From NCBI GenBank assembly GCA_016217545.1, contig JACRHT010000012.1:186001-250000 (forward strand): a stretch of DNA of 64,000 nt. The letters are read 5' to 3'. The stretch is from Opitutia bacterium (GTDB taxonomy: Bacteria; Verrucomicrobiota; Verrucomicrobiia; Opitutales; Opitutaceae). Under the pieces are notes generated by a model that was not told the origin of the DNA, made no database searches, and saw nothing but the letters and a program-made list of their open reading frames with translations. Below, piece after piece: positions 3,753 through 16,502 of the stretch (within the stretch, counting starts at the first letter, position 1; the number at the start of each line of letters is the position of its first letter). The position numbers and the translations under genes were made by a program.

Positions 3753-4955
3753 ATGAAATCCCTCGCCGTTCTCCTTCTCGCCGCCACGCTCGCGCTCGCC
3801 GCCCACGCTGCCGAACCCGCCTCGTTCGCCGACGCCGTCGCGCAAGGCAAGGTCTCACTCAACGCCCGCCTGCGCTACGAAGGCGTGCAGCAGACCAATC
3901 TGCTCGACGCCAACGCGCTCACGCTCCGCACGCGCCTCGGCCTCACGACCGCGAAGTTCCACGGCTGGCAGTTCTCCGTTGAGGGCGAGAACGTCACCGC
4001 CTACGACGGCGACGCCTACAGCCAGTCCGGCCTCAATCCCGCCGCCGCCCGCCGCGCCGTGGTCGGCGACCCCGAGACCACCGAGCTGAACCAGCTCTGG
4101 CTCGCCTACACTTTCGGCAAAACCACCGCCACGCTCGGCCGCCAGAAGCTCATTCTCGACAACGCCCGTTTCGTCGGCGACGTGGGCTGGCGGCAGAATC
4201 AGCAGACGTTCGACGCGCTCGTCGTGCAGGACAAATCGCTCAAGGACACGACGCTCACCTACGCCTACCTCGACCAAGTGAACCGCGTGTTCTCGCGCCG
4301 CCACGCGCAAGGCCGCTGGGATTCCGAGTCGCACGTGTTGAATGCCGCCTACACCGGCAACCCGCTCGGCACCGTCACCGGCTACGCCTACCTGCTCGAC
4401 TTCGACAATTCCACCGCCAACTCCTGCGCCACCTACGGCGTCAGCCTCGTCGGCGCGCAGAAGATCAGCGACGCCCTCAAGTTCACTTACCGCGCCGAGC
4501 TCGCGACGCAGTCCGACTACGGCTCCAGCCCGCTGAGCTACTCCACCGTCTATCACAGCGTGGAGGCCGGCCTCGCGGCGAAGTCCGTCAGCTTCACGCT
4601 CGGTCACGAGCTGCTCGGTTCCGACAACAACGTCGGCTTCAAGACTCCGCTCGCGACGCTGCACGCCTTCAACGGCTGGGCCGACCTCTTCCTCGCGACG
4701 CCCGCCGCCGGCCTGCGCGACGTCTACGTCAAAGGCACTGCCAATTTCCCGTCGGCTGTCACGCTCACCGCGTTCTACCACTGGTTCGAAGCCGCGAAAG
4801 GCGGCGCGGATTTCGGCACCGAGACCGACGTGATGCTCTCGCGCAAGTTCGGCAAATACGTCACCGCGACGGCGAAGGCCGCCGAGTTCCGCCGCGACAG
4901 CCTCGCCTACGCCAACGTCCGCAAGGTCTGGCTCCAACTCGACTACGCGTGGTGA
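3753..4955 (+). CDS. Outer-membrane beta-barrel porin (alginate-export-like)
   Basis: A 400-residue protein with a clear signal peptide (MKSLAVLLLAATLALAAHAA) followed by SLNARLRYEGV and alternating amphipathic strands such as GWQFSVEGENV and TATLGRQKLILD. It ends in LQLDYAW, with a terminal aromatic residue as in outer-membrane barrels. The pattern resembles alginate_export/porin families with about 16-18 strands. It is the first gene behind the FNR-type site and is followed 58 bases later by nrfH, so a role in admitting nitrite or other small anions for ammonification is a reasonable inference. The barrel call is firm; the substrate is inferred only from context. Confidence 0.75.
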   Translation: MKSLAVLLLAATLALAAHAAEPASFADAVAQGKVSLNARLRYEGVQQTNLLDANALTLRTRLGLTTAKFHGWQFSVEGENVTAYDGDAYSQSGLNPAAARRAVVGDPETTELNQLWLAYTFGKTTATLGRQKLILDNARFVGDVGWRQNQQTFDALVVQDKSLKDTTLTYAYLDQVNRVFSRRHAQGRWDSESHVLNAAYTGNPLGTVTGYAYLLDFDNSTANSCATYGVSLVGAQKISDALKFTYRAELATQSDYGSSPLSYSTVYHSVEAGLAAKSVSFTLGHELLGSDNNVGFKTPLATLHAFNGWADLFLATPAAGLRDVYVKGTANFPSAVTLTAFYHWFEAAKGGADFGTETDVMLSRKFGKYVTATAKAAEFRRDSLAYANVRKVWLQLDYAW

Positions 4956-4963
4956 ACCTCCAT

Positions 4964-4980
4964 CGGGGATTCCCCGCTAC
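4964..4980. repeat. Small hairpin between porin and nrfH
   Basis: CGGGG-ATT-CCCCG is followed by CTAC. Read on the minus strand it is GTAG plus a short hairpin, the REP-like layout seen elsewhere in this window. It could also reduce read-through between porin and nrfH. Confidence 0.4.
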
Positions 4981-5013
4981 TTCGCCTCGTCGCGCTTCTG
5001 CTAAACTCCTTCC

Positions 5014-5490
5014 ATGAAACCCCCGGCGCCCCGCCTCCGTTTCTACCTCGCGCTGACGCTCACCGGCGTGATCGGCCTGTTCCTCGGGCTCGGCAGCTAC
5101 ACGTTCACGTTCGCCCACGGCCTTTCGTATTTTTCCAACGACCCGAAGGCGTGCGTGAACTGCCACATCATGCGCGAGCAGTTCGACGGCTGGCAGAAAT
5201 CCCCGCACCACGCCGTCGCCACCTGCAACGATTGCCACACGCCGCACGACTTCGTCCGGAAATACCTCACGAAAGCGGAAAACGGCTACTGGCACTCGAA
5301 GGGTTTCACGCTGCAGGACTTTCATGAGCCGATCATGATCCGCTCGAAGAACGTGGCCGTGCTCCAGGAAAACTGCGTCGCGTGCCACCAGCAGATCGTC
5401 GACGGCATCAACACCCACCCGGGCGATCCGCAGAAGATGCTCGATTGCCTCCACTGCCACCGCGACGTCGGCCACGGCCCCGTCCGCTGA
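5014..5490 (+). CDS. nrfH: Cytochrome c nitrite reductase small subunit NrfH
   Basis: A 158-residue tetraheme cytochrome of the NapC/NirT family. One N-terminal membrane anchor (about residues 10-34) is followed by four heme motifs: C47-VNC-H51, C71-NDC-H75, C121-VAC-H125 and C145-LHC-H149. The first has methionine two residues after the motif histidine (CxxCHxM), the NrfH signature. The protein passes electrons from menaquinol to NrfA at the periplasmic face of the inner membrane. It lies between the porin and nrfA, all on one strand, and is expected to be co-transcribed. Length, heme count and gene order all fit. Confidence 0.95.
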   Translation: MKPPAPRLRFYLALTLTGVIGLFLGLGSYTFTFAHGLSYFSNDPKACVNCHIMREQFDGWQKSPHHAVATCNDCHTPHDFVRKYLTKAENGYWHSKGFTLQDFHEPIMIRSKNVAVLQENCVACHQQIVDGINTHPGDPQKMLDCLHCHRDVGHGPVR

Positions 5491-5494
5491 CCGC

Positions 5495-5528
5495 TCTTTC
5501 TCTTCCCTCTTTCTCTCAATCTTTCTCC
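5495..5528 (+). repeat. Pyrimidine-rich heptad-like tract, copy 2
   Basis: The tract begins four bases after the nrfH stop and runs toward the nrfA start. It is the same 34-base sequence as at 553-586 apart from three substitutions, all of them C/T exchanges. Confidence 0.75.
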
Positions 5529-5548
5529 TTCCCCGCCCCTCACCCGCC

Positions 5549-7015
5549 ATGAACTCCCGCCTCTCCAGCCAACGCGGCCTCAGCATCGCCGGCTACCTCG
5601 GCCTGCTCGCCCTCTTCGCCGTCGCCACCTTCGGCGTCCTGATGCTCTACCAGAACATCGTCGCCCGCAAAGCCGAGGCGACCAAGGATGTCTTCCGCGT
5701 CGTCGAAGTCAGCGACAAGACGATCGACCCCGCCGTCTGGGGCAAAAACTACCCGCGCCAATACGACAGCTACAAGCGCACCGTCGACACCGAGCGCACC
5801 AACTTCGGCGGCAGCGAGGCGTTCCAGCACCTCGACGCTGATCCCATGTGGCGCCGCATCTTCGCCGGCTACGCCTTCGGCATCGATTACCGCGAGGAGC
5901 GCGGCCACGCCTACATGCTGCAGGACCAGCGCGAGACCGAGCGCGTCACCAAACGTCCGCAACCCGGCGCCTGCCTCCAGTGCCACGCCTCCACAGTGAA
6001 CCTTTACCTCGAGCAAGGCCTCAAGGCCGGCGCGCCCGCCGGCAAGGAGCACTGGGAAGAGCAAATGCAGAAGGGCTTCGAGGTCGTCTGCAAGATGCCC
6101 TACGCCGAAGCCACCAAGCTCGTCGAGCATCCGGTCTCGTGCATCGATTGCCACGACGCCGAGACGATGGCGCTCCGCGTGAACCGCCCGGGCTTCCTCA
6201 ACGGCATCCGCGCGCTCGCCAAGTCCGACTACCCGACGCCGCACCTGCCGAGCATCGAGCGCTGGCGCAAGGAAGGCCGCAAAGGCCAATACGAACCCAA
6301 CAAGGACGCCACGCGCCAGGAAATGCGCTCGATGGTCTGTGCCCAGTGCCACGTGGAGTATTACTTCAAAGGCGAGGGCAAGCTCGTCACCTACCCGTGG
6401 GACAAGGGCCTGAAGGTCGAGCAGATCGAGACCTACTACAACGAGGTCGGTCACAAGGATTGGGTGCACAAGGAAACCGGCGCCAACGTGCTCAAGGCCC
6501 AGCACCCCGAATTTGAAATGTGGAGCCAGGGCATCCACGCCCGCGCCGGCGTCTCCTGCGCCGATTGCCACATGCCCTACGTCCGCGAAGGCGCCGTCAA
6601 GGTCAGCAACCACCACGTCCGCTCGCCGCTCCTCAACGTCGCGCAGGCCTGCCAGACCTGCCACCGCGTCCCCGAGCAGGAAATCAAGGCCCGCGCCCTC
6701 GCCGTGCAGGACCGCAACGCCGCGCTCCTCACCCGCGGCGAGAAAGCGCTCGTCGGCCTGATCGACGCCATCGTCGCCGCGCAAAAAGCCGGCGCCACGG
6801 ATGCGCAACTCAAAGCCGCGCGCGAGTTCCAGCGTCAGGCCCAGTGGCGCCTCGACTTCGTCTCCGCGGAAAACTCCATGGGCTTCCACGCTCCGCAGGA
6901 AGCCGCGCGCATCCTCGCCGAGGCGATCGACTACGCCCGCCAAGGCGAACTCGCCGTCGCCCGCGACACGAAGCCGGCCGCTCCCGCCGTCGCCACCGCC
7001 GCCGGCACACCGTAA
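5549..7015 (+). CDS. nrfA: Ammonia-forming cytochrome c nitrite reductase NrfA, CXXCH type
   Basis: A 488-residue pentaheme periplasmic enzyme that reduces nitrite to ammonium. An N-terminal hydrophobic segment (about residues 11-30) exports or anchors it. Heme motifs lie at C142-LQC-H146, C198-IDC-H202, C264-AQC-H268, C337-ADC-H341 and C368-QTC-H372. The first, catalytic, heme site has histidine where most characterised enzymes have lysine (CXXCK). KAQH (K316, Q318, H319), the calcium-ligand and active-site histidine segment, and [10 protein letters not shown] with the active-site tyrosine are present. It is the last gene of the porin-nrfH-nrfA unit, followed by a terminator at 7037-7064. 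The function is firm; the heme-1 variant is notable. Confidence 0.95.
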
Positions 7016-7036
7016 ATTTGGTTTGGTTCCGATCGA

Positions 7037-7074
7037 GAGGCGCGACTCGACCGAGTCGCGCCTCTTCGTTTTCC
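7037..7074 (+). terminator. Rho-independent terminator after nrfA
   Basis: A perfect 13-base stem (7037-7049 with 7052-7064, arm GAGGCGCGACTCG) is followed by TTCGTTTTCC. It separates the nrf unit from the MMPL-led operon. Confidence 0.85.
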
Positions 7075-7137
7075 ACGCCGCCGCGCGCCCCGGAACATTG
7101 GCTCGCGCCATCCGGTCGCATTTCGCAATCTGCCCCG

Positions 7138-9390
7138 ATGCGCCCTGCGTATGTGCGACTCGCCCACTGGCTGTTCCGGCACCGACGCGCCGTCGTCATC
7201 GCGTGGCCGCTCGCGCTGCTGCTGTGCCTGCCCGCCGCCCGCCGCGCGCCGGATTTTCTGCAAGCCGGCTCCGGGCAACTGCCCGGCGCCGACTCGGCTG
7301 AAGTGGAAACCGCCCTCGCGCGCGACTTCGACCATCCGTTCACGCACAGCCTCGCGATCACGTTCGACTCCGCCACCGCACGCATCGACGCGCCGGAGTT
7401 CCGCGCCGCACTCGCCGATTTCGCCTCCGCCCTGCGCACGAGTCCCGCCGTGGCGCGCGTCGTGGTGCCGGACGAGCAGGTCGCCGCGCAATTTCGCGCT
7501 GCCGACGGACACTCCGTCGCGGTGCTGCTCGGGTTGAAGGCCGGCCGCTTCGACGAAGCCGAGGCCGCCGTGCCCGTCGTCCGCGCCGCCGTGCGCGCGG
7601 CGTGGCCGGCCGCGCGCTTCCCGGAGTGGAGCGTTCGCGTCACCGGTCGCTCCGCGATCAACTACGACCTCGGCGTCTTCAACGCCCGCGACTCGCAGCG
7701 CGCCGAGCTGCGCGCGCTGCCGCTCTCGTTGATCGTGCTCGTCTTCGTGTTCGGCTCGCTCGGCGCCGCGGCGCTGCCGCTGGCCCTCGGCGTCGCCTCG
7801 ACCACAGCCGCGCTCGCGGCCGTGCCGGCGCTGGCCTCGTTCACGCCGCTCAACATCCTCTACCAAAACGTCGTCACGCTCCTCGGTCTCGCGCTCGGCA
7901 TCGATTACTCGCTCTTCCTCGTCAACCGCTACCAAGAACAGCGCGCCGCCGGCGACGATCGCGAGAGCGCGCTCGCGACTACGCTCGCTACCACGGGTTT
8001 CGCCATCACGTGTTCCGGGCTGACCGTGTTGATCGGACTCGCCGGCTTGCTGCTCACACCGCTCTTCGAACTGCGCTCCGTCGGCCTCGGCGGACTCGTC
8101 GTCGTGGCGCTGAGCGTCGCGCTGTCGCTGACGTTGCTGCCCGCGCTGTTGGTCACGTGCGACCGCTGGCTCGGTTCGCCGCGCTGGCTCGCGCTCCGCA
8201 TCGCTCCCGCCCAGAGCCAGACGCGTTGGGAAAAATGGACCGCGTTCGTCCTCCGGCGCCCCATCGCGGCGCTGCTGGTCGGCCTCGCGGGATTGCTCGC
8301 GCTGAGCGCGCCGCTCCTGAAACTGCACCCGGGATTCCCCGACCGGCCGTGGCTGCCGACGACAATGGAAAGCACCGAGGGATTCGCCGTCCTGCAGAAG
8401 ATGGGCGTCTCGCAGGAGGCGATGCCGTTCCTCATGATCGTCCGCGCCACCGACGGCGGCGAACTGCTCCCGCGTCACCTCGACGGTTTGATCGCGCTGT
8501 CGGACGAATTATGGGAGGACGGCCGCGCCAATCGCATCTTTGGACCGGCGGACCTCGCGCCGATGGTGCCGCGCTTCCTCGTGCGGGAATTCTATCGCGA
8601 CTTCGAACGCCATTTCGCGGAGAAGCCGGAACTCGCCGCAATGATCCTCAGCCGCGACCGGCGTTCCGCTCTCGTGCAAATCGTCCTGCACGACGACGCC
8701 ACCTACGGCGCCACGCAGGAATACTCCCGTTGGCTGCGTGAGCGACGCGTGCCCGGGCTTACGCTCGCGGTCGGCGGACACTGGCCGGGCGCGCTCGATT
8801 TCGACGCGGTGTTGCTGCGTGCCTACCCGATCGCGTTCGGCGCCGTCATCGCCGCGACGTTCGCGGTGTTGGCATTCGCGTTTCGCTCGCTGCTCGTCCC
8901 CGTGAAGGCGCTCGTGTTGAACGCGCTGTCCGTCTCCGCCGCCTTCGGCGCGATGGTCGCGGTTTTCCAATGGGGCTGGGGCGCCGCGTGGCTCGGACTC
9001 GACGGGCCGACAGGCGCCGTGCCGCTCGTGATTCCCATCATGGTTTTCTGCCTCACGTTCGGGTTGAGCATGGACTACGAGGTGATGATCCTTGCACGCG
9101 TCCGGGAGGAATTTCTTCGCTCGCCCGATGGCGACGCCTCGGTGCGCCGCGGGCTCGTCGCAACGGGCCGCATCATCAGCGGTGCCGCTGCGATCATGGT
9201 CGTGGTGTTTGGCGCCTTCGCGCTCGCGGGCGTCGTGGTCGTGAAGATGTTCGGCTTCGGCCTCGCCGTCGCCGTGGCGGTCGACGCACTCGTCGTGCGC
9301 GCGCTCATGGTGCCGGCCGCGATGAAACTCGCTGGCCGCTGGAACTGGTGGCCGGGCCTGCGTGGCGCGCCGGCGCCCAAGGCCGAATGA
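7138..9390 (+). CDS. MMPL-family RND transporter
   Basis: A 750-residue inner-membrane protein with two repeats, each a transmembrane helix, a periplasmic domain and a helix bundle. Hydrophobic clusters start at [14 protein letters not shown] and continue from about residue 195. The family motifs [16 protein letters not shown] and, in the second half, [18 protein letters not shown] carry the aspartate-tyrosine pairs used for proton coupling. MMPL/HpnN-type proteins export lipids or lipid-like metabolites. The ATG at 7138 places the first helix at the N-terminus. The stop overlaps the next start (ATGA), so it is coupled to the SDR, ketosynthase, hydrolase, ATP-grasp and acyltransferase-like genes. 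This context suggests it exports their product. Confidence 0.88.
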
Positions 9391-10349
9391 AACTCCTCGT
9401 CACCGGCGCCTCAGGCTTCGTCGGCGGCGCGGTCGTCCGCGCGGCGCGCGCCCGCGGCTGGGAAGTGCGCGGCATCGGACGCCGCGCGCTGGCGGAAGAC
9501 GGTTACGCCGCAATCGATCTCACGCGACCGTTCGACTTGGATTTCCGCCCGGACGTCGTCGTGCACGCCGCCGCGCGGTCATCGCCGTGGGGACGTGAGC
9601 GTGAGTTCACGGCGCAGAACATCGACGGCACGCGCCACGTGCTGGATTTCTGCGCGACGCACGGCTGCCCGCATCTCGTTCATATCTCCACTGCCGCCGT
9701 GCTCTATCGGCGCGAACACCAGCTCAACCTCGACGAACAAACTCCGCCGCCCGAGCAGCCGATCAACGACTATGCTCGCACCAAGCTCGCGGCCGAGCGC
9801 CTCGTGCGCGGCTACGGCGGCAGCTGGGCCATCCTGCGGCCGCGCGCAGTGTTCGGACCGGGCGATACCGTCGTATTTCCGCGGATCCTGCGCGCGCTCG
9901 AGCGCGGCCGCTTGCCGTTGATCGAGTCCGACCGACCAGTCTTCGGCGACGTCATCTTCGTCGACACACTTGCCGACTACATCCTGCGCGCCGCCGAGCG
10001 CCGCGCGACCGGCGTGTATCACGTCACGAACAACGAACCGGTGGAAATCTACGCGTTCCTCCGGCGCATTTGCGAAGGTCTCAACCTGCCGCCGCCCACG
10101 CGTCGCGTGAGCGCCACACGCGCGCTCCGGCTCGCTGCCTTCGTGGAGACGATCTACCGTTGCCTGCCCTTCCTCGGCGAACCGCCCGTCACGCGCTTCG
10201 GCGTCAGCGTGTTCGCCTGGTCCAAAACCTTCGACGCCCGCCGCACGCTGCGCGACCTCGGTCCGCCTTCCGTTAGCCTCGAGGAAGGCCTGCGCCGTTT
10301 TCTCGCCGCCGAGCGCGCCCGCCGCTCCGCGCCTCTTTCGCCCCCATGA
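9387..10349 (+). CDS. NAD(P)-dependent SDR (epimerase/3-beta-HSD type)
   Basis: A 320-residue extended short-chain dehydrogenase. The Rossmann motif GASGFVGG is at residues 7-14; HAAARSS and STAAVLYR follow, and the catalytic tyrosine-lysine pair is in YARTK. RPRAVFGPGD and VIFVDTLADYILRA complete the epimerase/3-beta-hydroxysteroid-dehydrogenase pattern; OleD of olefin synthesis belongs to the same group. It is coupled at both ends by ATGA overlaps (with the MMPL gene and the ketosynthase). In context it probably reduces or epimerises a beta-keto product of the neighbouring ketosynthase, which is an inference. Confidence 0.85.
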   Translation: MKLLVTGASGFVGGAVVRAARARGWEVRGIGRRALAEDGYAAIDLTRPFDLDFRPDVVVHAAARSSPWGREREFTAQNIDGTRHVLDFCATHGCPHLVHISTAAVLYRREHQLNLDEQTPPPEQPINDYARTKLAAERLVRGYGGSWAILRPRAVFGPGDTVVFPRILRALERGRLPLIESDRPVFGDVIFVDTLADYILRAAERRATGVYHVTNNEPVEIYAFLRRICEGLNLPPPTRRVSATRALRLAAFVETIYRCLPFLGEPPVTRFGVSVFAWSKTFDARRTLRDLGPPSVSLEEGLRRFLAAERARRSAPLSPP

Positions 10350-11326
10350 AGCAACACTTCAAGATCATCGGCTCCGCCCGCGCGCTGCCGAGCAAGTGCC
10401 TCACGGCCGACGAACTCGATCGCCGCGCCGGCTTGCCCGCCGGCTGGACCGAGCGCCACACCGGCGTGCGCTTCCGCTATGAAGCGGTTGAGCCCGAGAA
10501 CGGCACGACGCTCGGCTGCCAGGTCGTGCGCGAGGCGTTGGCTTCCGCCGGCCTCGGTCTGCGCGACATGGAGCTGCTGATCGACGCCAGCCTCTGCGTG
10601 CAGCAACCGATCCCGAGCAACTCCGCGCTGCTCCAACAGGCGCTCGGCCCCGAAGCCGCGGGCGGCGCGACGATGGACGTGCACTCCAGCTGCCTCGGCT
10701 TCGCGGTCGCGCTGCAAGTGGCGAACGGCTTGTTCGCGAGCGGCGCGCATCGTCGCGCGGTCATCGTTTGCGCCGAGACGCACCTGCGCGGCGTCAACTG
10801 GAACGACCCGGAAAGCTCACACCTCATGGGCGACGGCGCCGCGGCGGTCGTGCTCGAAGCGTGCGCGCCGACGCACGACTTCGTGTTCCGTTTCCAGACC
10901 TTCGGCGCCGGCGCGAACCTTTGCCAGGTGCAGGGCGGCGGGCATCGCCTGCCGCCCTACGACTACGCCGAGTCGAAGCGCGCGCTCTACCAATTCGAGA
11001 TGGACGGCAAGGGCGTGCACAAATTCGCCAGCACGCACCTGCCGCCGATGGTCCGCGACGCGCTCGCGGAAGCCCGCGCGAGCATCGGCGACCTGCACGT
11101 CGTCCCGCACCAAGCCTCGGGCCCCGCCATCGAGCTGCTCGCGCGCCGGCTCGGCGTGAATCCCGAGCGGTTGCACTCGTCCGTCCAAAATCACGGCAAT
11201 CTCGTCGCCGCCGGCCTGCCCTTCGTGCTGCACGCCGCGCGCGCCGAGTTGCCCGCGGGCACGCGCGTGATGCTCATCGGCACCGCTGCCGGTTACTCGC
11301 AGGCCGTGGCGATCTTCACGCTCTGA
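10346..11326 (+). CDS. 3-oxoacyl-ACP synthase III-like ketosynthase
   Basis: A 326-residue thiolase-fold condensing enzyme of the FabH/KAS III group with the full catalytic triad: C116 in VHSSCLGF, H255 in VVPHQAS and N285 in QNHGNLVAAG. MGDGAAAVVL is the usual KAS III glycine-rich segment. Such enzymes join an acyl-CoA or acyl-ACP starter to malonyl-ACP, or condense two acyl chains in OleA-like branches. Neither FabD nor an acyl-carrier protein lies nearby, so this is more likely a pathway-specific enzyme than housekeeping FabH. Its start overlaps the SDR stop by four bases, and the hydrolase gene starts four bases after its own stop. Confidence 0.88.
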   Translation: MKQHFKIIGSARALPSKCLTADELDRRAGLPAGWTERHTGVRFRYEAVEPENGTTLGCQVVREALASAGLGLRDMELLIDASLCVQQPIPSNSALLQQALGPEAAGGATMDVHSSCLGFAVALQVANGLFASGAHRRAVIVCAETHLRGVNWNDPESSHLMGDGAAAVVLEACAPTHDFVFRFQTFGAGANLCQVQGGGHRLPPYDYAESKRALYQFEMDGKGVHKFASTHLPPMVRDALAEARASIGDLHVVPHQASGPAIELLARRLGVNPERLHSSVQNHGNLVAAGLPFVLHAARAELPAGTRVMLIGTAAGYSQAVAIFTL

Positions 11327-11330
11327 GAAA

Positions 11331-12140
11331 ATGGAAACGCGTTTCTTCAACGGCGGTCACTGCGGCCAGCTGCTCGCGCTCGTCGACCGGCGCAGCTGGC
11401 GCTGGGTGCGCTTCCACGCCGTTTTTCTCGCCGTGCGCCATCCGCGCGAAGGCTGGGTGTTGATCGACACCGGTTACGGCGGGCGTTTCCCCGCCGCGAC
11501 GCGACGCTGGCCGTTCTTCCTCTATCGTCTCGCGACGCCCGCGACGATGGCGGGCTCGACCGCCGACACGCTGCGCGCCGCCGGCATCGCGCCGGAGGAA
11601 ATCCGGCACGTCGTCGTCACGCACTTCCACGCCGATCACATCGGCGGACTCGCCGATTTCCCGCACGCAACCATCCATCATCACGCCGACGCGTGGCGCA
11701 CGCTCGCCGCGCTCTCGCCGTTCAAGCAACTGCACGCCGCCTTCCTGCCCGCGCTCGTGCCCGATTGGCTGGCGCAGCGCAGTCGCCCGATCGCGGCCGA
11801 GGCCTTTTTGGCGGGGACCGAGTTGCCCTTCCCGATGCACGATTTGTTCGGCGACGGCACAATCCAGCTGCTCGACCTTCCCGGGCATGCGCCGGGACAC
11901 CTCGGCGTGCGCCTGCCCGGCGCCGAGCGCCCGCTGCTCTACGCGACCGACGCCTACTGGAACGCGGCCCAGATTGCCGGCGGCGTGGACCTGATTCCGC
12001 CCGTGTTGCGCGTCCAATGGGACGGTCGCGCCTACGTTGAAACGGTGCGCCGCCTGCGCGGCGTGCAGGCAGCGGGGACACACACCCTGCTCGCATGCCA
12101 TGCGCCCGAGACGCAGGCGTTCGTCGCAGGCAACCCATGA
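11331..12140 (+). CDS. Metallo-beta-lactamase-fold hydrolase
   Basis: A 269-residue MBL-fold protein. The metal-binding motif is HFHADH (H98, H100, D102, H103) and LLDLPGHAPGHLGV supplies the next histidine. The order and length resemble the lactonase/glyoxalase II-like branch. It lies between the ketosynthase and the ATP-grasp gene, with a four-base gap before it and a four-base overlap after it. In this setting it could hydrolyse a thioester or lactone intermediate, freeing or editing acyl chains; that is inferred. No signal peptide is visible, so it should act in the cytoplasm. Confidence 0.82.
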   Translation: METRFFNGGHCGQLLALVDRRSWRWVRFHAVFLAVRHPREGWVLIDTGYGGRFPAATRRWPFFLYRLATPATMAGSTADTLRAAGIAPEEIRHVVVTHFHADHIGGLADFPHATIHHHADAWRTLAALSPFKQLHAAFLPALVPDWLAQRSRPIAAEAFLAGTELPFPMHDLFGDGTIQLLDLPGHAPGHLGVRLPGAERPLLYATDAYWNAAQIAGGVDLIPPVLRVQWDGRAYVETVRRLRGVQAAGTHTLLACHAPETQAFVAGNP

Positions 12141-13261
12141 ACGTGCTCGTCACCGGCGCCCGCGCGCCCATCGCCGCCGACCTCGCGCGCGCGCTGTCGC
12201 TCGCGGGCCATCGCGTGTGGGTGAGCGACAGTCTCCGCTGGCCGCTCGGCGCCGCGAGTCCGTTCGTTGCCGGCTACGTGCGACTGCCGGCGCCGCGCCG
12301 GGATTTTGGCCGTTTTTGCACCGCGCTCGCCGGGGCCTGCGAACGACTCGCGCTCGACGCCATCGTGCCGACCTCGGAGGAAGTTTTCTGGCTCGCCGGC
12401 ACGCGCCATCGCCTGCCACCGGGCGTCGATTTGCGCACGAGTGCGCTGCCGGTGCTAGCGCAGCTGCACCACAAGGGCGAGTTTGCCCGGCTCGCGGCCA
12501 GCCTGGGCTACGGCGCGGCAGCGAACCACGTGCTTACTTCGCGCGACGAGATTGCCGCGCTGCGCGAGCCCGAGCGCTACGTCTTCAAGCCCGTCTACTC
12601 GCGCTTTGCCGCTCGCACACTACTGGCTCCAACTCCGCGCCAGCTCGCGCGCCTCGCGCCGACGCCCGTCGAGCCGTGGCTCGCCCAAACGCGGATCGCG
12701 GGCCACGAACTCTGCGCCTACAATGTCGCGCACGACGGCCGGCTCCTGCTGCACATCGCCTACGCGCCACTCGTGCGGCACGGCGTTGGCGCCAGCATCA
12801 GCTTCGGTCCGGTGGAACACGCCGGCCTGCGCGAACTCTGCTCCCGCATCGTCGTCGCAACCGGATTCACCGGGCAAATCAGCTTCGATGTCATGGAAAC
12901 CGACGACGGCCGGCTCGTCGCGCTCGAATGCAATCCGCGCGGCACGAGCGGCGCGCATCTCGCCGCGCAACATCCGGCCGTGCTCGCCACCGCGCTGCTC
13001 GGCCAGACGACCGCGCCTGCCGACAGGCTGCCGACCGAGCCACGCCTGCTGCGCGTGCCGTTGCTGTTGAGCCAGCCCTCCGCTTGGCTCCGCTGGCGCG
13101 AATGCCGCGAACGCGACGCCCTCCGCGCCGCCGGTTTGCCGCTGCACGCACAACTGCTCGCTCTGACGGAGATGACGTGGCTCGCGCTGCGCCACCGCAC
13201 GAGCCTCGCGCGCGCGTCGACGGCTGATTTCGAATGGAACGGGGAGGCGATGCGTGAGTGA
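12137..13261 (+). CDS. ATP-grasp ligase
   Basis: A 374-residue protein that starts MNVLVTGARAPIAADLARAL, a pre-ATP-grasp Rossmann-like domain. The ATP-grasp core follows (YVFKPVYSRFA, then FTGQISFDVMETDDGRLVALECNPRGTSG), where E264 and N266 match the magnesium-binding E-x-N of the family. These enzymes form amide or thioester bonds through an acyl-phosphate. The start at 12137 overlaps the previous stop (ATGA), and its own stop overlaps the GTG of the next gene by eight bases. It probably ligates an amino acid or amine to the acyl product of this operon, or makes a peptide-like head group; the substrate is not visible. Confidence 0.8.
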   Translation: MNVLVTGARAPIAADLARALSLAGHRVWVSDSLRWPLGAASPFVAGYVRLPAPRRDFGRFCTALAGACERLALDAIVPTSEEVFWLAGTRHRLPPGVDLRTSALPVLAQLHHKGEFARLAASLGYGAAANHVLTSRDEIAALREPERYVFKPVYSRFAARTLLAPTPRQLARLAPTPVEPWLAQTRIAGHELCAYNVAHDGRLLLHIAYAPLVRHGVGASISFGPVEHAGLRELCSRIVVATGFTGQISFDVMETDDGRLVALECNPRGTSGAHLAAQHPAVLATALLGQTTAPADRLPTEPRLLRVPLLLSQPSAWLRWRECRERDALRAAGLPLHAQLLALTEMTWLALRHRTSLARASTADFEWNGEAMRE

Positions 13262-14357
13262 CGCGGCGTGGCGCACGTTCCTCGGAGCAGGCTTGCGCGG
13301 CGACGCCCCGCTGGTCGCCAACGCGGATGTCACTGTCCACGAGGTTGCACTCGCCGGCGAGCGCGCACCTGTCGTCATCAATCGCGGTCGCGCCGCGGAA
13401 ACAAGCTGGGTGGCGAGCTTGCGCAACGCCTACGGGCCTTATGCGCGCGCCGAAGCCGCCGCCGCGAATCTCAGCGCCTTCGCGCGCCGGCTCGGCGTCG
13501 CCGCGTCGCACGTCGGCGAGACGTTGCTCGCAGCCGGCGGACTCTCGGGCGGTTGCTACCTCGACAGCTGGCTGATCGCGACGGAGCTGCACGCACCGCA
13601 ATTGACCAGCGCAGCCGTGCTCCACGCGCTGGACGAGGTGATGCGACTCGCGCCGCGCGAGCCGATCGTGCTCCGCTCGCTCACGCCCGCTCTGCACCGC
13701 GAGTTGCTCCTGGGTGTCGCGGAGGCCGGTTTCCTGTTGTTGCCGACGCGGCAGGTGTGGCTCGTGCCCGATCTCGCGAGCGGCGCATGGCGGCGGCGGC
13801 GCGACCCGGCGAACGACCTGCGCCTCGCCGCCGAGTCGGCGGAAGCCTGGCAGTGGATTGATGGCGCGGCATTTTCCGCGGACGACTTTGCCACGGCGCA
13901 CGCGCTCTATCAGCAGCTGTATCGGCGGCGCTACCCGACGTTCAACCCCGACTACACCGTGGAGTTTTTCCGCCGCGGCGTGGCGAGCGGTTTTATCGAG
14001 GTGGCGGGAATGCGTCCGGCGCGCGGCGGGCCGTTGCAGGCCGTGGTGGGCATGGTGCATCGCGGCGGCGTGTCCGCGACGCCGTTGCTCGGCTACGACC
14101 TCACGGCACCGCAGGAGCTCGGCCTCTATCGCCTCGCCTCACTCCACATTTGGCAGAACGCGGAGCGTCGCGGCACGCTGCTCCACTGCAGCGCGGGCGC
14201 GGGCGCGTTCAAGGAGAGCCGCGGTGCGACGCACGCCGTGGAGTTCGCCGCGGTATGGACGGGCCATTTGCCGCGCGCCCGCCGGGCCTGCCTTGCGACA
14301 CTCGCGGGGACGCTGCGTCGTTGGGCGGTGCCCTACATGGAGCGTCACCGGCTTTGA
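13254..14357 (+). CDS. GNAT/FemAB-like acyltransferase-like protein
   Basis: A 367-residue protein of no family I can name with certainty. The C-terminal half (from about residue 215) has the look of a FemAB/BioF2-like GNAT fold: LYQQLYRRRYPTFNPDYTVE, then strand-rich GFIEVAGMR and AVVGMVHRGG, a GYDL segment and LGLYRLASLHIWQNAERRG. The N-terminal half is helical with no motif that I recognise. The GTG start overlaps the ATP-grasp stop by eight bases, so it is the last gene of the coupled operon. A role as an acyl or aminoacyl transferase finishing the operon product is an inference. Confidence 0.6.
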   Translation: MSDAAWRTFLGAGLRGDAPLVANADVTVHEVALAGERAPVVINRGRAAETSWVASLRNAYGPYARAEAAAANLSAFARRLGVAASHVGETLLAAGGLSGGCYLDSWLIATELHAPQLTSAAVLHALDEVMRLAPREPIVLRSLTPALHRELLLGVAEAGFLLLPTRQVWLVPDLASGAWRRRRDPANDLRLAAESAEAWQWIDGAAFSADDFATAHALYQQLYRRRYPTFNPDYTVEFFRRGVASGFIEVAGMRPARGGPLQAVVGMVHRGGVSATPLLGYDLTAPQELGLYRLASLHIWQNAERRGTLLHCSAGAGAFKESRGATHAVEFAAVWTGHLPRARRACLATLAGTLRRWAVPYMERHRL

Positions 14358-14400
14358 CGCCGGCGCGTTTCGGGGGAAACTTCCGCCTCGCGGCCCGAGC

Positions 14401-14414
14401 ATGACCTGCGTCAA
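14401..14414 (+). promoter_or_regulatory. FNR/DNR-like site upstream of the DUF2249-cupin pair
   Basis: ATGAC-CTGC-GTCAA has two half-sites related to TTGAC/GTCAA at FNR spacing. It lies 50 bases before the ATG at 14465. The second half-site is the exact inverse of the TTGAC half at 3662-3666. Confidence 0.5.
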
Positions 14415-14464
14415 GGCGCCGGACCGCTTTCCCCGCTATTTTTCCCTCCACGCCCCGGCGCCGC

Positions 14465-14704
14465 ATGAAACCCAAATCCTTCAAAATCTTCGACGTCCGG
14501 CCGCTGCTGGCTCAAGGCGCGGAACCCTTCCCGTTGATCCGCGAACGCGTCGATGCGCTCGATGCCACGCACGGTCTGACCATCGTCGCGCCGTTTCTTC
14601 CCGCGCCGCTGATCGAGTTGCTCAAGAGCGAAGGCTTCGAATCCACGATGGAACGCCGCGCCGACGGCGCGTGGGCCGTCAATTTCTGGAGGCAAAACCC
14701 ATGA
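14465..14704 (+). CDS. DUF2249 (TusA-like) small protein
   Basis: A 79-residue protein spanning one DUF2249 domain: FKIFDVRPLLAQGAEPFPLIRERVDAL at the start, GLTIVAPFLPAPLIELLKSEGF in the middle, and a C-terminal GAWAVNFWR. The fold is TusA-like, but the TusA cysteine is absent. DUF2249 genes commonly sit near denitrification, nitric-oxide and hemerythrin genes under Fnr-family control, which agrees with the FNR-like site just upstream. The stop overlaps the cupin start (ATGA), giving a two-gene unit. The molecular function of the domain is not known. Confidence 0.75.
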   Translation: MKPKSFKIFDVRPLLAQGAEPFPLIRERVDALDATHGLTIVAPFLPAPLIELLKSEGFESTMERRADGAWAVNFWRQNP

Positions 14705-15048
14705 AAGCCATTCTCGCCACCGACGCCGCCGGCGTCGCCCCGCTCACCCTGCCCGACCGCGCGCCCGATCATGGCATCGTCTCACAGGCGCTCCTCACTG
14801 CGCCCGGCCTGCGCGCGACGCTCTTCCGTTTCGCCGCCGGACAGGAACTCTCCGAGCACACCAGCCCCGCGCGCGTGCTGGTGCAGGTCGTGGCCGGCGA
14901 ATGCGAATTCTCGGTCGCCGGCGAGCCGCGGCTGATCAAGCCGGGTGAGTTGCTGCACTTGCCGCCGTCCGCACCGCACGCCGTGAAAGCGGTCAGCGAT
15001 CTCACGCTGCTCGTGATCCAAGCGACGCCGCCCGCAGCGCGCGCGTGA
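14701..15048 (+). CDS. Small cupin-domain protein
   Basis: A 115-residue single-domain cupin: FRFAAGQELSEHTSPARVLVQVVAGECEF forms motif 1, with only part of the usual histidine set, and PGELLHLPPSAPHAV forms motif 2. Such small cupins bind a metal or a small ligand, or act as sensors. It is coupled to the DUF2249 gene by an ATGA overlap and probably shares its promoter with the FNR-like site. It converges with the histidine phosphatase gene only ten bases away. Fold firm, role unknown. Confidence 0.75.
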   Translation: MKAILATDAAGVAPLTLPDRAPDHGIVSQALLTAPGLRATLFRFAAGQELSEHTSPARVLVQVVAGECEFSVAGEPRLIKPGELLHLPPSAPHAVKAVSDLTLLVIQATPPAARA

Positions 15049-15058
15049 GTCGCCGCGC

Positions 15059-15721
15059 TCAGGCGAGTTCGCGGTGCCGCTCGCGGTAGATCGCGCGCAA
15101 GCCGCTCTCGCGCCAGCCGAACGCGACGCCGTCGAGAAAGTTCAACCAGCCCACGTCCTCATGCCGCAACCCGACGAACTGCTCGCGCACGGCCATGATG
15201 TTGATGTCGTGCGACACGTGCAGATCGAGCGCGCGGGGCGTCGACGCCACTTCGGCGAGCCGCTCGCGGATGTGAGCCAGAATCTCGCTCGCGCAACGAT
15301 CCGCCGGATCGATGACGTTCGCAGGCAGTTCGCCGCCACACCAGAGGCGCACGAAATGTGGGCCGTGCAACTCGAAGAGCCGGCCAAACTCGTCGCGGTC
15401 GCGCGTGTAGCCGATTCCGAGCGCCTCGTGCGCGCCGTGGATCTCGGCCGTGGCGCCGAGCCGGCGCACGCCGCGCGCGATGCCCTCGGCCGTTTGCTGG
15501 CAGCGCTGCACCGGACTGAAAAACAGCCGCACGCGCGCGAAATCCCCGAGCGACGCGCCGAACGCCTCCGCAGCCGCGTGGCCCTCCGCGGTGAGAAGAG
15601 GCAACTCCGGCCGCGTCGGATCAACGATTTCCTCGCGCGCCGCATGCCGCAGCACCGCTGCCACCGGATGACCGGATCGGGCCTCGTTTCGCAAGGTTGC
15701 CAGAAGAGCTTCGCCACGCAT
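15059..15721 (-). CDS. Histidine phosphatase superfamily protein
   Basis: A 220-residue branch of the phosphoglycerate-mutase-like fold. The N-terminal catalytic motif is RHA (R25, H26) with a further arginine at R29. FFSPVQRCQQTAEGI supplies the second arginine, and the distal histidine is in LHVSHDINIM. The third residue of the usual RHG is alanine here, which occurs in the acid-phosphatase/phytase side of the family. The start at 15721 is the in-frame ATG just before the catalytic domain. The gene diverges from the Crp/Fnr gene across 61 bases, so the two promoters lie back to back. Substrate unknown. Confidence 0.75.
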   Translation of the reverse strand: MRGEALLATLRNEARSGHPVAAVLRHAAREEIVDPTRPELPLLTAEGHAAAEAFGASLGDFARVRLFFSPVQRCQQTAEGIARGVRRLGATAEIHGAHEALGIGYTRDRDEFGRLFELHGPHFVRLWCGGELPANVIDPADRCASEILAHIRERLAEVASTPRALDLHVSHDINIMAVREQFVGLRHEDVGWLNFLDGVAFGWRESGLRAIYRERHRELA

Positions 15722-15782
15722 CGTGAAAATTGATGCGCGGCCCACGCCCGACAGGTCAAGCCCGCGCCGCTCCCCGCCGTCC

Positions 15783-16502
15783 ATGCCCACGCCTCCCCGC
15801 TCCGCCGAATTCAAACTCACCGGCCTCATCGGCACGCTGCGCTGCGCGCAGCTGTTCAGCGGACTCTCCGGCGAGGACCTGACGATGATCGCCGGATTCA
15901 CGCAGACCGTGGCGCTCGCGAAGGACGACTATCTTTTCCACGAGGGCGAAAGTTCGCGCGGCTGCTACCTCGTGCAGAGCGGCGCGATCAACGTCCACAA
16001 GGTCAACGCCGCCGGGAAGGAGCAGGTGATCCACGTTTTCCGCGCGGGCGAGTCGCTCGCCGAGGCCTCGCTCGCGTCGCCGACCGGCTATCCGGCCAAC
16101 GCCCGCGCGGTCGAGCCGAGCACCGTCCTGCTGATCCCGAAGGCGCCGCTGCTGGAGCTGATCGGCCGTCGCCCCGACCTCGCGCTGCGCATGCTCGGCT
16201 CGATGAGCACGCACCTGCGCGTGCTCGTCGGCATGCTCGACGACCTGACACTCAAGGACGTCGAGACGCGCCTGCTCCACTGGCTGGTGAAACACGCGCG
16301 CGACGCGAAGGACGGTGTCGTCCCGCTGCGCGGCACCAAGCGCGTGCTCGCGGCCGAACTCGGCACGAGCAGCGAAACACTCTCCCGCACGCTCGCGCGC
16401 CTGCGCGACGAGAAGCTGATCACCGTCGCGGCGAAGAGCATCGCCGTGCACGACGCCGCGAAGTTGGCCGCGATGCTGCGGCACAACCTGGGCGAGGCGT
16501 AG
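15783..16502 (+). CDS. Crp/Fnr-family transcription regulator (DNR-like)
   Basis: A 239-residue regulator with an N-terminal cyclic-nucleotide-binding-like beta-barrel (about 25-120), a dimer helix and a C-terminal winged helix. The recognition helix SSETLSRTLARL has E198, S201 and R202 at the spacing used by FNR (E..SR) to read TTGA half-sites. FNR-type N-terminal iron-sulfur cysteines are absent: only C21 and C61 exist. It is therefore closer to DNR/NnrR-type or other heme or redox sensors. The ATG at 15783 is taken; an in-frame ATG at 15723 would add 20 residues without domain character. It is the obvious candidate regulator for the sites at 3662 and 14401. Confidence 0.85.
   Translation: MPTPPRSAEFKLTGLIGTLRCAQLFSGLSGEDLTMIAGFTQTVALAKDDYLFHEGESSRGCYLVQSGAINVHKVNAAGKEQVIHVFRAGESLAEASLASPTGYPANARAVEPSTVLLIPKAPLLELIGRRPDLALRMLGSMSTHLRVLVGMLDDLTLKDVETRLLHWLVKHARDAKDGVVPLRGTKRVLAAELGTSSETLSRTLARLRDEKLITVAAKSIAVHDAAKLAAMLRHNLGEA

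Follow-up and report, generated by a model that had tools for sequence, protein, structure and literature searches.

A ketosynthase-containing operon of an Opitutia bacterium carries the five-gene core of an apparently undescribed cassette found in about ten phyla

We analyzed a six-gene operon in a 64,000-nucleotide stretch of DNA from an Opitutia bacterium (the whole stretch, G000:C12:186001-250000, is referred to below as the window). All six open reading frames (ORFs) lie on the forward strand and translate without internal stops. They encode an MMPL-family exporter (positions 7138 to 9390; hmmscan, MMPL 262 bits), an extended short-chain dehydrogenase/reductase (SDR) that is OleD-like but scores below OleD cutoffs (9387 to 10349; Epimerase 106 bits), a ketoacyl synthase III (KAS III)-type ketosynthase (10346 to 11326; ACP_syn_III 65 bits and its C-terminal domain 58 bits), a metallo-β-lactamase (MBL)-fold hydrolase that is lactonase-like by sequence (11331 to 12140; Lactamase_B 73 bits), a PRK06849-like ATP-grasp ligase (12137 to 13261; NCBIfam PRK06849 277 bits, under the cutoff of 406), and, from a GTG start, a tandem-GNAT protein with a predicted L-PGS/FemX-like fold (13254 to 14357; predicted model and Foldseek). 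The ORFs overlap by 4 bases at 9387, 10346, and 12137 and by 8 bases at 13254, and the sole intergenic gap within the operon is 4 bases long (11327 to 11330). The six genes, overlaps, and 4-base gap listed in a preliminary description of this DNA are thus real, and its impression of a biosynthetic operon is supported.

With the ATP-grasp protein as the query, tblastn returned 14 plasmid records, and the neighborhoods of 9 of the 14 were examined. Five plasmids, from Roseateles, Shinella, Rhizobium, Paenibacillus, and Paraburkholderia, carry KAS III, SDR, MBL, ATP-grasp, and GNAT genes together with a gene for an F390 synthetase-related/CoF synthetase enzyme (on the Roseateles plasmid, the F390 and GNAT genes are annotated as hypothetical and were recognized by profile). 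A Pontibacillus plasmid neighborhood has the full set minus the GNAT gene, a Deinococcus plasmid neighborhood has the ATP-grasp and GNAT genes only, and two Pseudomonas megaplasmids have only fragments of the cassette. On these megaplasmids (L057 and L058; pBASL58 and pMPPla107), F390-related and ATP-grasp genes, accompanied in L057 by an MBL gene, lie near each other without being adjacent, and there is no KAS or SDR match within the stretch fetched; they represent either a partial cassette or the same enzymes put to a different use. The Roseateles plasmid also encodes, near its cassette, an AMP-binding protein (L051:5160-7721) with a weak carrier-domain match and about nine predicted membrane segments.

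A scan of genome contigs found at least 546 confirmed ATP-grasp relatives, of which the best 80 (L062 to L141), a nonrandom sample, were kept. Because of how they were found, all 80 of these independent loci contain the ATP-grasp gene; in 60 (the wide set), it is flanked by 7 kb or more in each direction, and the remaining 20 were dropped as too short. Profiles of the core proteins were built from the window, genome G018, and the plasmid rows, and the independent counts, at a threshold of 130 bits, use L062 to L141 only. Across the 60 wide loci, the profile search found KAS in 57, SDR in 56, MBL in 55, and GNAT in 52; all five core genes were present in 49, and at least four of the five were present in 56. 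As decoys, 20 loci with a weaker match to PRK06849 were taken from other genomes of the phylum (L192, L195, and L201 have less than 7 kb on one side). At the same threshold, they gave one KAS match, no other core match, and no Rieske match, with the full five-gene core in 0 of 20. The recurrence of the five-gene core in other phyla indicates that the operon is not a product of chance.

We then placed 42 rows in which KAS, SDR, MBL, and ATP-grasp each reached at least 130 bits on a four-gene tree (LG+G4, quick search), leaving out 35 loci judged to be near-duplicates and those in which one or more of the four genes were missing. The rows cover ten phyla, several of them by metagenome-assembled genomes (MAGs) alone. 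The window, G018, and an Opitutaceae MAG (L113) form one clade with a support of 100. G018, from the same family as the window, has the five core genes in a divergent layout, and of 288 genomes of the phylum, none other than G000 and G018 has a PRK06849 match of 90 bits or more. According to record titles, the cassette is also found in isolates of Pseudomonas, Mesorhizobium, and Paenibacillus. The pairwise identity of the window core proteins to those of other rows is 28 to 60% (plasmid cassettes, 28 to 44%; G018, 54 to 60%). The cassette consists of five to seven genes, which are adjacent or overlapping in plasmids and many chromosomes and are annotated singly, with their function unnamed. 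These results indicate that five of the window genes constitute the core of a recurrent cassette, which stays largely intact across about ten phyla. The proposed co-occurrence of six families thus holds for five of them in other genomes, whereas MMPL was found at the cassette in the window lineage only; the conserved unit is the five operon genes plus the F390 synthetase-related enzyme, which is missing here, rather than the six-gene set. In kind, this is a small KAS III-based biosynthetic cluster, an already known type, with a combination of partners that is not known to us from elsewhere. Two Verrucomicrobiota loci (L079 and L095) represent a second, divergent type of cassette, in which the KAS, SDR, and MBL genes score low, a Rieske gene is present, and no F390 gene lies within the stretch covered; in the tree, they group with the Pseudomonas type, apart from the window.

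Next, we looked at the genes that accompany the core. An F390 synthetase-related enzyme (TIGR02304) occurs in 51 of the 60 wide independent loci, and a Rieske oxygenase occurs in 40 of 60 by profile (eight members, seven of them among the 80 loci) or in 34 of 60 by BLAST clusters, which include antisense shadow ORFs. Plasmid and chromosomal sets of the same five families thus have the F390-related enzyme and often the Rieske enzyme, whereas the window is without both and has MMPL upstream instead; TIGR02304 has no match anywhere in G000. The window copy is a reduced variant of the cassette with an exporter added. The F390 gene is not universal in the cassette: when the window, G018, and the plasmids are counted in, 8 of the 71 wide loci, the window and G018 among them, combine a complete five-gene core with the absence of F390. 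Mapping F390 on the tree takes five changes, of which starred branches force four, with the limit that 4 of the 12 F390-less rows (L079, L094, L095, and L134) have little flanking sequence on at least one side and F390 may lie beyond. The Opitutaceae MAG has kept its Rieske gene.

Beside two F390-less cassettes, in an Anaerolineales MAG (L105) and a Trueperaceae MAG (L117), lies a gene for an OleC-like AMP-binding enzyme. The two enzymes score 488 and 536 bits to the olefin β-lactone synthetase model (the cutoff of 900 is not reached) and 553 and 579 bits to PRK09274 (above the cutoff of 478); no other strong OleC-type match was found in the loci searched, the next best scoring 43 bits. The OleC-like ligase at F390-less cassettes suggests that the adenylating step is replaceable. 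In G000 itself, an OleC-like gene neighbors an OleD-like gene at C12:797-800 kb, and a separate contig, C16, carries an OleA-like gene (these genes lie in L155:9431-11370 and L157:9324-12235). The genome may run a split Ole hydrocarbon pathway, and these genes could help the cassette in trans.

The exporter has a different history from that of the enzymes. A phmmer search with the window MMPL found no match in any other cassette locus, at a limited sensitivity that missed other MMPL/RND genes of the same genome among the loci searched, and it recognized no MMPL at the G018 cassette locus. MMPL was also absent from the 25 commonest of 47 Pfam families in 46 polytopic ORFs near cassettes, which would allow for a single case. 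MMPL is thus not a regular member of the cassette, and the linkage is seen in the window lineage only. In G007, a genome of the same genus, the nrfA product is 99%, the cupin protein 95%, and the MMPL protein (over 750 residues) 96.5% identical to that of the window. After the G007 MMPL gene, about 21 to 24 SDR codons align, after which the G007 sequence resumes at the equivalent of about window position 14393. An SDR stub of about 40 codons, the first 21 of them matching, lies directly behind the intact MMPL gene (4577 to 4697 of L187, G007:C1:2374000-2380500), as a scar at the site of the five missing enzyme genes. Since the best PRK06849 match anywhere in G007 is 35 bits, the ATP-grasp gene is not located elsewhere in that genome. 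MMPL was therefore already beside SDR when G000 and G007 diverged. The most economical account places MMPL and SDR (the latter at least in its first part) in the ancestor, with the remainder lost in G007. Two other genomes, G006 and G004, have neither MMPL nor the five core genes at the corresponding site; the ORFs scanned there encode COX1-like and SCO1-like proteins (G006) and a single cytochrome b/ferredoxin protein (G004). In the window lineage, MMPL may plausibly act as the exporter, but it lies outside the conserved unit.

The best NCBIfam model for the window ketosynthase is PRK07204 (247 bits; cutoff, 402). The full Cys-His-Asn triad of the preliminary description is present as Cys116-His255-Asn285, and these residues are conserved in 72, 72, and 71 of 72 independent rows, with one gap (matches below 250 bits, such as L079 and L095, were left out of the residue counts). 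Against PDB chains, the family profile scores 317 bits with MxnB (chain 4v2p, as we take it), 304 with CorB, at most 261 with FabH, and 123 with OleA (presumably chains such as 3row and 5vxd). By this comparison, the family appears nearest to MxnB and CorB, which join two acyl chains. Position 89, Ile in the window, corresponds to the position of the OleA glutamate and is Leu, Ile, Met, or Val in 71 of 72 rows, with one gap, and never Glu; the OleA-like protein of G000 (L145) has Glu at the aligned position. The E. coli FabH residue aligned here is, we assume, Phe87. Because FabH is also hydrophobic at this site, the residue excludes OleA only. An earlier study describes the glutamate as essential in PpyS (E105; E117 in OleA) and as supplied by the partner subunit, with Val in its place in MxnB and CorB (PMC4578411). 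Furthermore, Gln87 is found in 69 of 72 and Ser258 in 72 of 72 independent rows, where the FabH rows compared have His/Tyr and Asn, and this pattern is common to the window family and MxnB/CorB. The window motif is HQAS versus HQAN in FabH, and the position of E. coli FabH Arg249, which we take to be the acyl carrier protein (ACP)-docking residue, is not conserved.

Two identities for the ketosynthase were rejected. Against the FabH model TIGR00747 (cutoff, 292), it scores 150 bits, and a separate G000 gene, at C2:70430, scores 421, which disposes of housekeeping FabH, the outcome that the preliminary description had named as fatal to its claim. Canonical OleA was rejected on the missing Glu at position 89 and the family profile score of 123; against PRK09258, presumably the OleA family (cutoff, 285), the window protein scores 64 bits and the OleA-like protein of G000 426. 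By these marks, the window ketosynthase is neither housekeeping FabH nor OleA. G000 has a further KAS III gene (G000:C16:568566-569549; L143), 233 bits to FabH and below the cutoff, which is neither the window ketosynthase nor the housekeeping FabH.

The best named NCBIfam model for the SDR, which has the motifs TGxxGxxG and YxxxK, is OleD (NF042422), at 160 bits with a cutoff of 580 that is not reached; the other OleD-like SDR of G000 scores 343 bits and is also below the cutoff. The MBL protein has a complete HxHxDH motif and is nearest to the acyl-homoserine lactone lactonases, below NCBIfam cutoffs (AttM, 67 of 390 bits; AiiA, 33 of 375), with no PqsE-named chain among 60 of its 69 structure matches. 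In two planctomycete loci (L094:855-2840 and L134:2118-4205), SDR and MBL are fused in one ORF of 662 to 696 codons, suggesting that the two act together in linked steps.

For the ATP-grasp protein, PRK06849 is a “hypothetical protein” model. Its predicted structure (pLDDT, 93.5) gave Foldseek matches to PurK, PurT, PylC, and L-amino acid ligases (E values, 5e-15 to 2e-13). The sixth protein has no Pfam or NCBIfam family by hmmscan, and its predicted model (pLDDT, 94.1) matched MprF/L-PGS, FemX, and an aminoacyl-tRNA-dependent peptide synthase (E values, 6e-10 to an L-PGS-type domain and 3e-8 to FemX). The model thus has the tandem-GNAT fold of FemABX/L-PGS transferases, which fits the initial guess of a GNAT/FemAB-like protein. 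Catalytic motifs are kept in all five core proteins of the window.

Taken together, the gene content suggests a pathway running from KAS III condensation through SDR reduction, adenylation, ATP-grasp amide formation, and GNAT transfer to MMPL export. The KAS III-type enzyme would load one acyl chain on Cys116 and condense it with a second activated chain to a β-keto product, which the OleD-like SDR would reduce to a β-hydroxy acid or thioester; hydrolysis of a thioester or lactone would fall to the MBL-fold enzyme, acting in close coupling with the SDR. An adenylate-forming enzyme (F390-related in most cassettes and OleC-like in two) would activate the free acid; in the window, this step may be skipped or supplied in trans by another ligase, such as the OleC-like protein of G000. 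The ATP-grasp enzyme would then join the carboxylate and an amine via an acyl phosphate, the tandem-GNAT protein would add an acyl or aminoacyl group, and MMPL would export a lipid-like amide or peptide product. We consider this scheme the best explanation and our confidence in it evenly balanced. Read from the sequences, the cassette probably makes a small fatty molecule. The OleC-like ligase at two F390-less cassettes indicates that the chemistry is probably Ole-like, i.e., condense, reduce, activate, and ligate to an amine. More broadly, and with somewhat less than even confidence, we suggest a widespread undescribed pathway in about ten phyla, in which a fixed five-enzyme core and a swappable adenylating module (F390 type, OleC type, or in trans) make a new class of amide- or aminoacyl-linked lipids from two fused acyl chains by free-standing enzymes, not by a polyketide synthase (PKS) or nonribosomal peptide synthetase.

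Several points weigh against this pathway. The core profiles (A1 to A5) contain the window, so that its own profile scores are circular. Compared alone with the PDB, the window ketosynthase matches a FabH chain (4ryb, 148 bits) slightly ahead of MxnB (145) and CorB (129), and the Foldseek TM-scores of the GNAT protein are only about 0.45 to 0.5. The window contains no F390, OleC-like, or Rieske homologue; lacking a local adenylating enzyme and Rieske oxygenase, it may yield something other than the full-cassette product, or it may be a copy in decay. The OleC-like gene is found in only two of the F390-less loci. Moreover, since MMPL is linked in one lineage and has outlasted the enzymes in G007, its role may be a different one.

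The alternative that survives best is a second Ole-type route, in which KAS and SDR would form a 2-alkyl-3-hydroxy acid, an adenylating enzyme (in trans here) would close it to a β-lactone, and MBL would open or edit the lactone. OleA, OleC, and OleD are described as yielding β-lactones (PMC7064751). The OleD model as the best named match for the SDR, the OleC-like ligase in two F390-less cassettes, the SDR-MBL fusions, and the Ole-like genes of G000 would all suit such a route, and Ole likewise begins with KAS III-type condensation followed by an OleD-like SDR. However, the window ketosynthase family never has the OleA Glu, the SDR is far under the OleD cutoff, none of the six genes matches an OleB-kind α/β hydrolase, and the ATP-grasp, GNAT, and MBL partners set the cassette apart from Ole, the first two being left unexplained. 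We regard this route as unlikely. The likeness to OleA/OleD hydrocarbon synthesis drawn in the preliminary description thus holds for the SDR, at a score far under the cutoff, and fails for the ketosynthase, the OleA-, OleC-, and OleD-like genes of G000 lying elsewhere.

We think it quite unlikely, and a shade more so, that the operon is a relic of a once complete cassette whose adenylating and oxygenase genes were lost and whose product is no longer made. The missing TIGR02304 match in G000, the stub that is all G007 retains at the site, and the rarity of the cassette in the phylum (2 of 288 genomes) are consistent with decay. Against it, the five ORFs are intact, with catalytic residues and overlaps kept, and the F390-less state is common to G018, the Opitutaceae MAG, and other lineages and therefore looks like a stable form.

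Chain joining of the kind seen for myxopyronin and corallopyronin, in which the ketosynthase would fuse two β-ketoacyl chains to an α-pyrone or similar ring and the other enzymes would tailor it, is less probable still. MxnB and CorB are the best family-profile matches among solved structures and have in common with the window family the Gln87/Ser258 pattern (a Gln close to the acyl site and the HQxS motif) and a hydrophobic residue where PpyS and OleA have Glu (PMC4578411). However, the window ketosynthase on its own resembles a FabH chain about as closely, and the six window genes include no PKS or carrier-protein family match. The conserved partners here are SDR, MBL, ATP-grasp, GNAT, and the adenylating enzyme; we know of no need for an SDR, ATP-grasp, or adenylating enzyme in pyrone formation. 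Finally, ordinary fatty acid synthesis with the ketosynthase as housekeeping FabH has a negligible probability, as the KAS III fold and triad and the top single-sequence match to 4ryb are outweighed by the separate FabH gene of G000, the unconserved Arg249 position, and the change from HQAN to HQAS.

Turning back to the pathway we favor, a further known system resembles the cassette in part. The pqsABCDE quinolone operon brings together an AMP ligase, a KAS III enzyme, and an MBL-fold thioesterase, as the cassette does, but the ketosynthase profile scores 173 bits against the PQS-enzyme chain 3h76 (PqsD, as we take it) versus 317 against MxnB. We found no published description of the cassette in the open-license literature of PubMed Central, which leaves most subscription journals outside and is weak evidence of absence; the F390 passages found there are table rows or a discussion of ladderanes, not this cassette. 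The earlier statement that no described cluster with this gene order is recognized stands as far as the publications searched go, although other genomes also carry the gene set. The cassette is real and apparently undescribed. It is compact enough to be expressed whole, and the exchange of F390-type for OleC-type enzymes gives a lead on the chemistry to expect. Should the product be new, it could give a function to families that now have generic or hypothetical names (PRK06849, TIGR02304, and PRK07204-like ketosynthases).

The site of the operon in the window is bounded on both sides by other genes. On the 5′ side lies an nrfHA-like cytochrome pair, separated from the operon by a strong terminator-like hairpin with a T-rich tail on the forward strand (about 7031 to 7072; fold, −30.5 kcal/mol; z, −4.55), and on the 3′ side are genes for a DUF2249 protein, a cupin protein, and a Crp-type regulator. 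A consensus scan of 6800 to 15100 gave no sigma-70 promoter-like site and seven terminator-like matches versus 5.9 expected, the hairpin at 7031 to 7072 not being among them. The interval between nrfHA and the DUF2249-cupin genes (3753 to 7015 and 14465 to 16502 in the window; L188 and L189) varies in content within the genus: it holds the MMPL operon in G000 and just the MMPL gene in G007, while G006 has COX1-like and SCO1-like genes there and G004 has a cytochrome b/ferredoxin gene.

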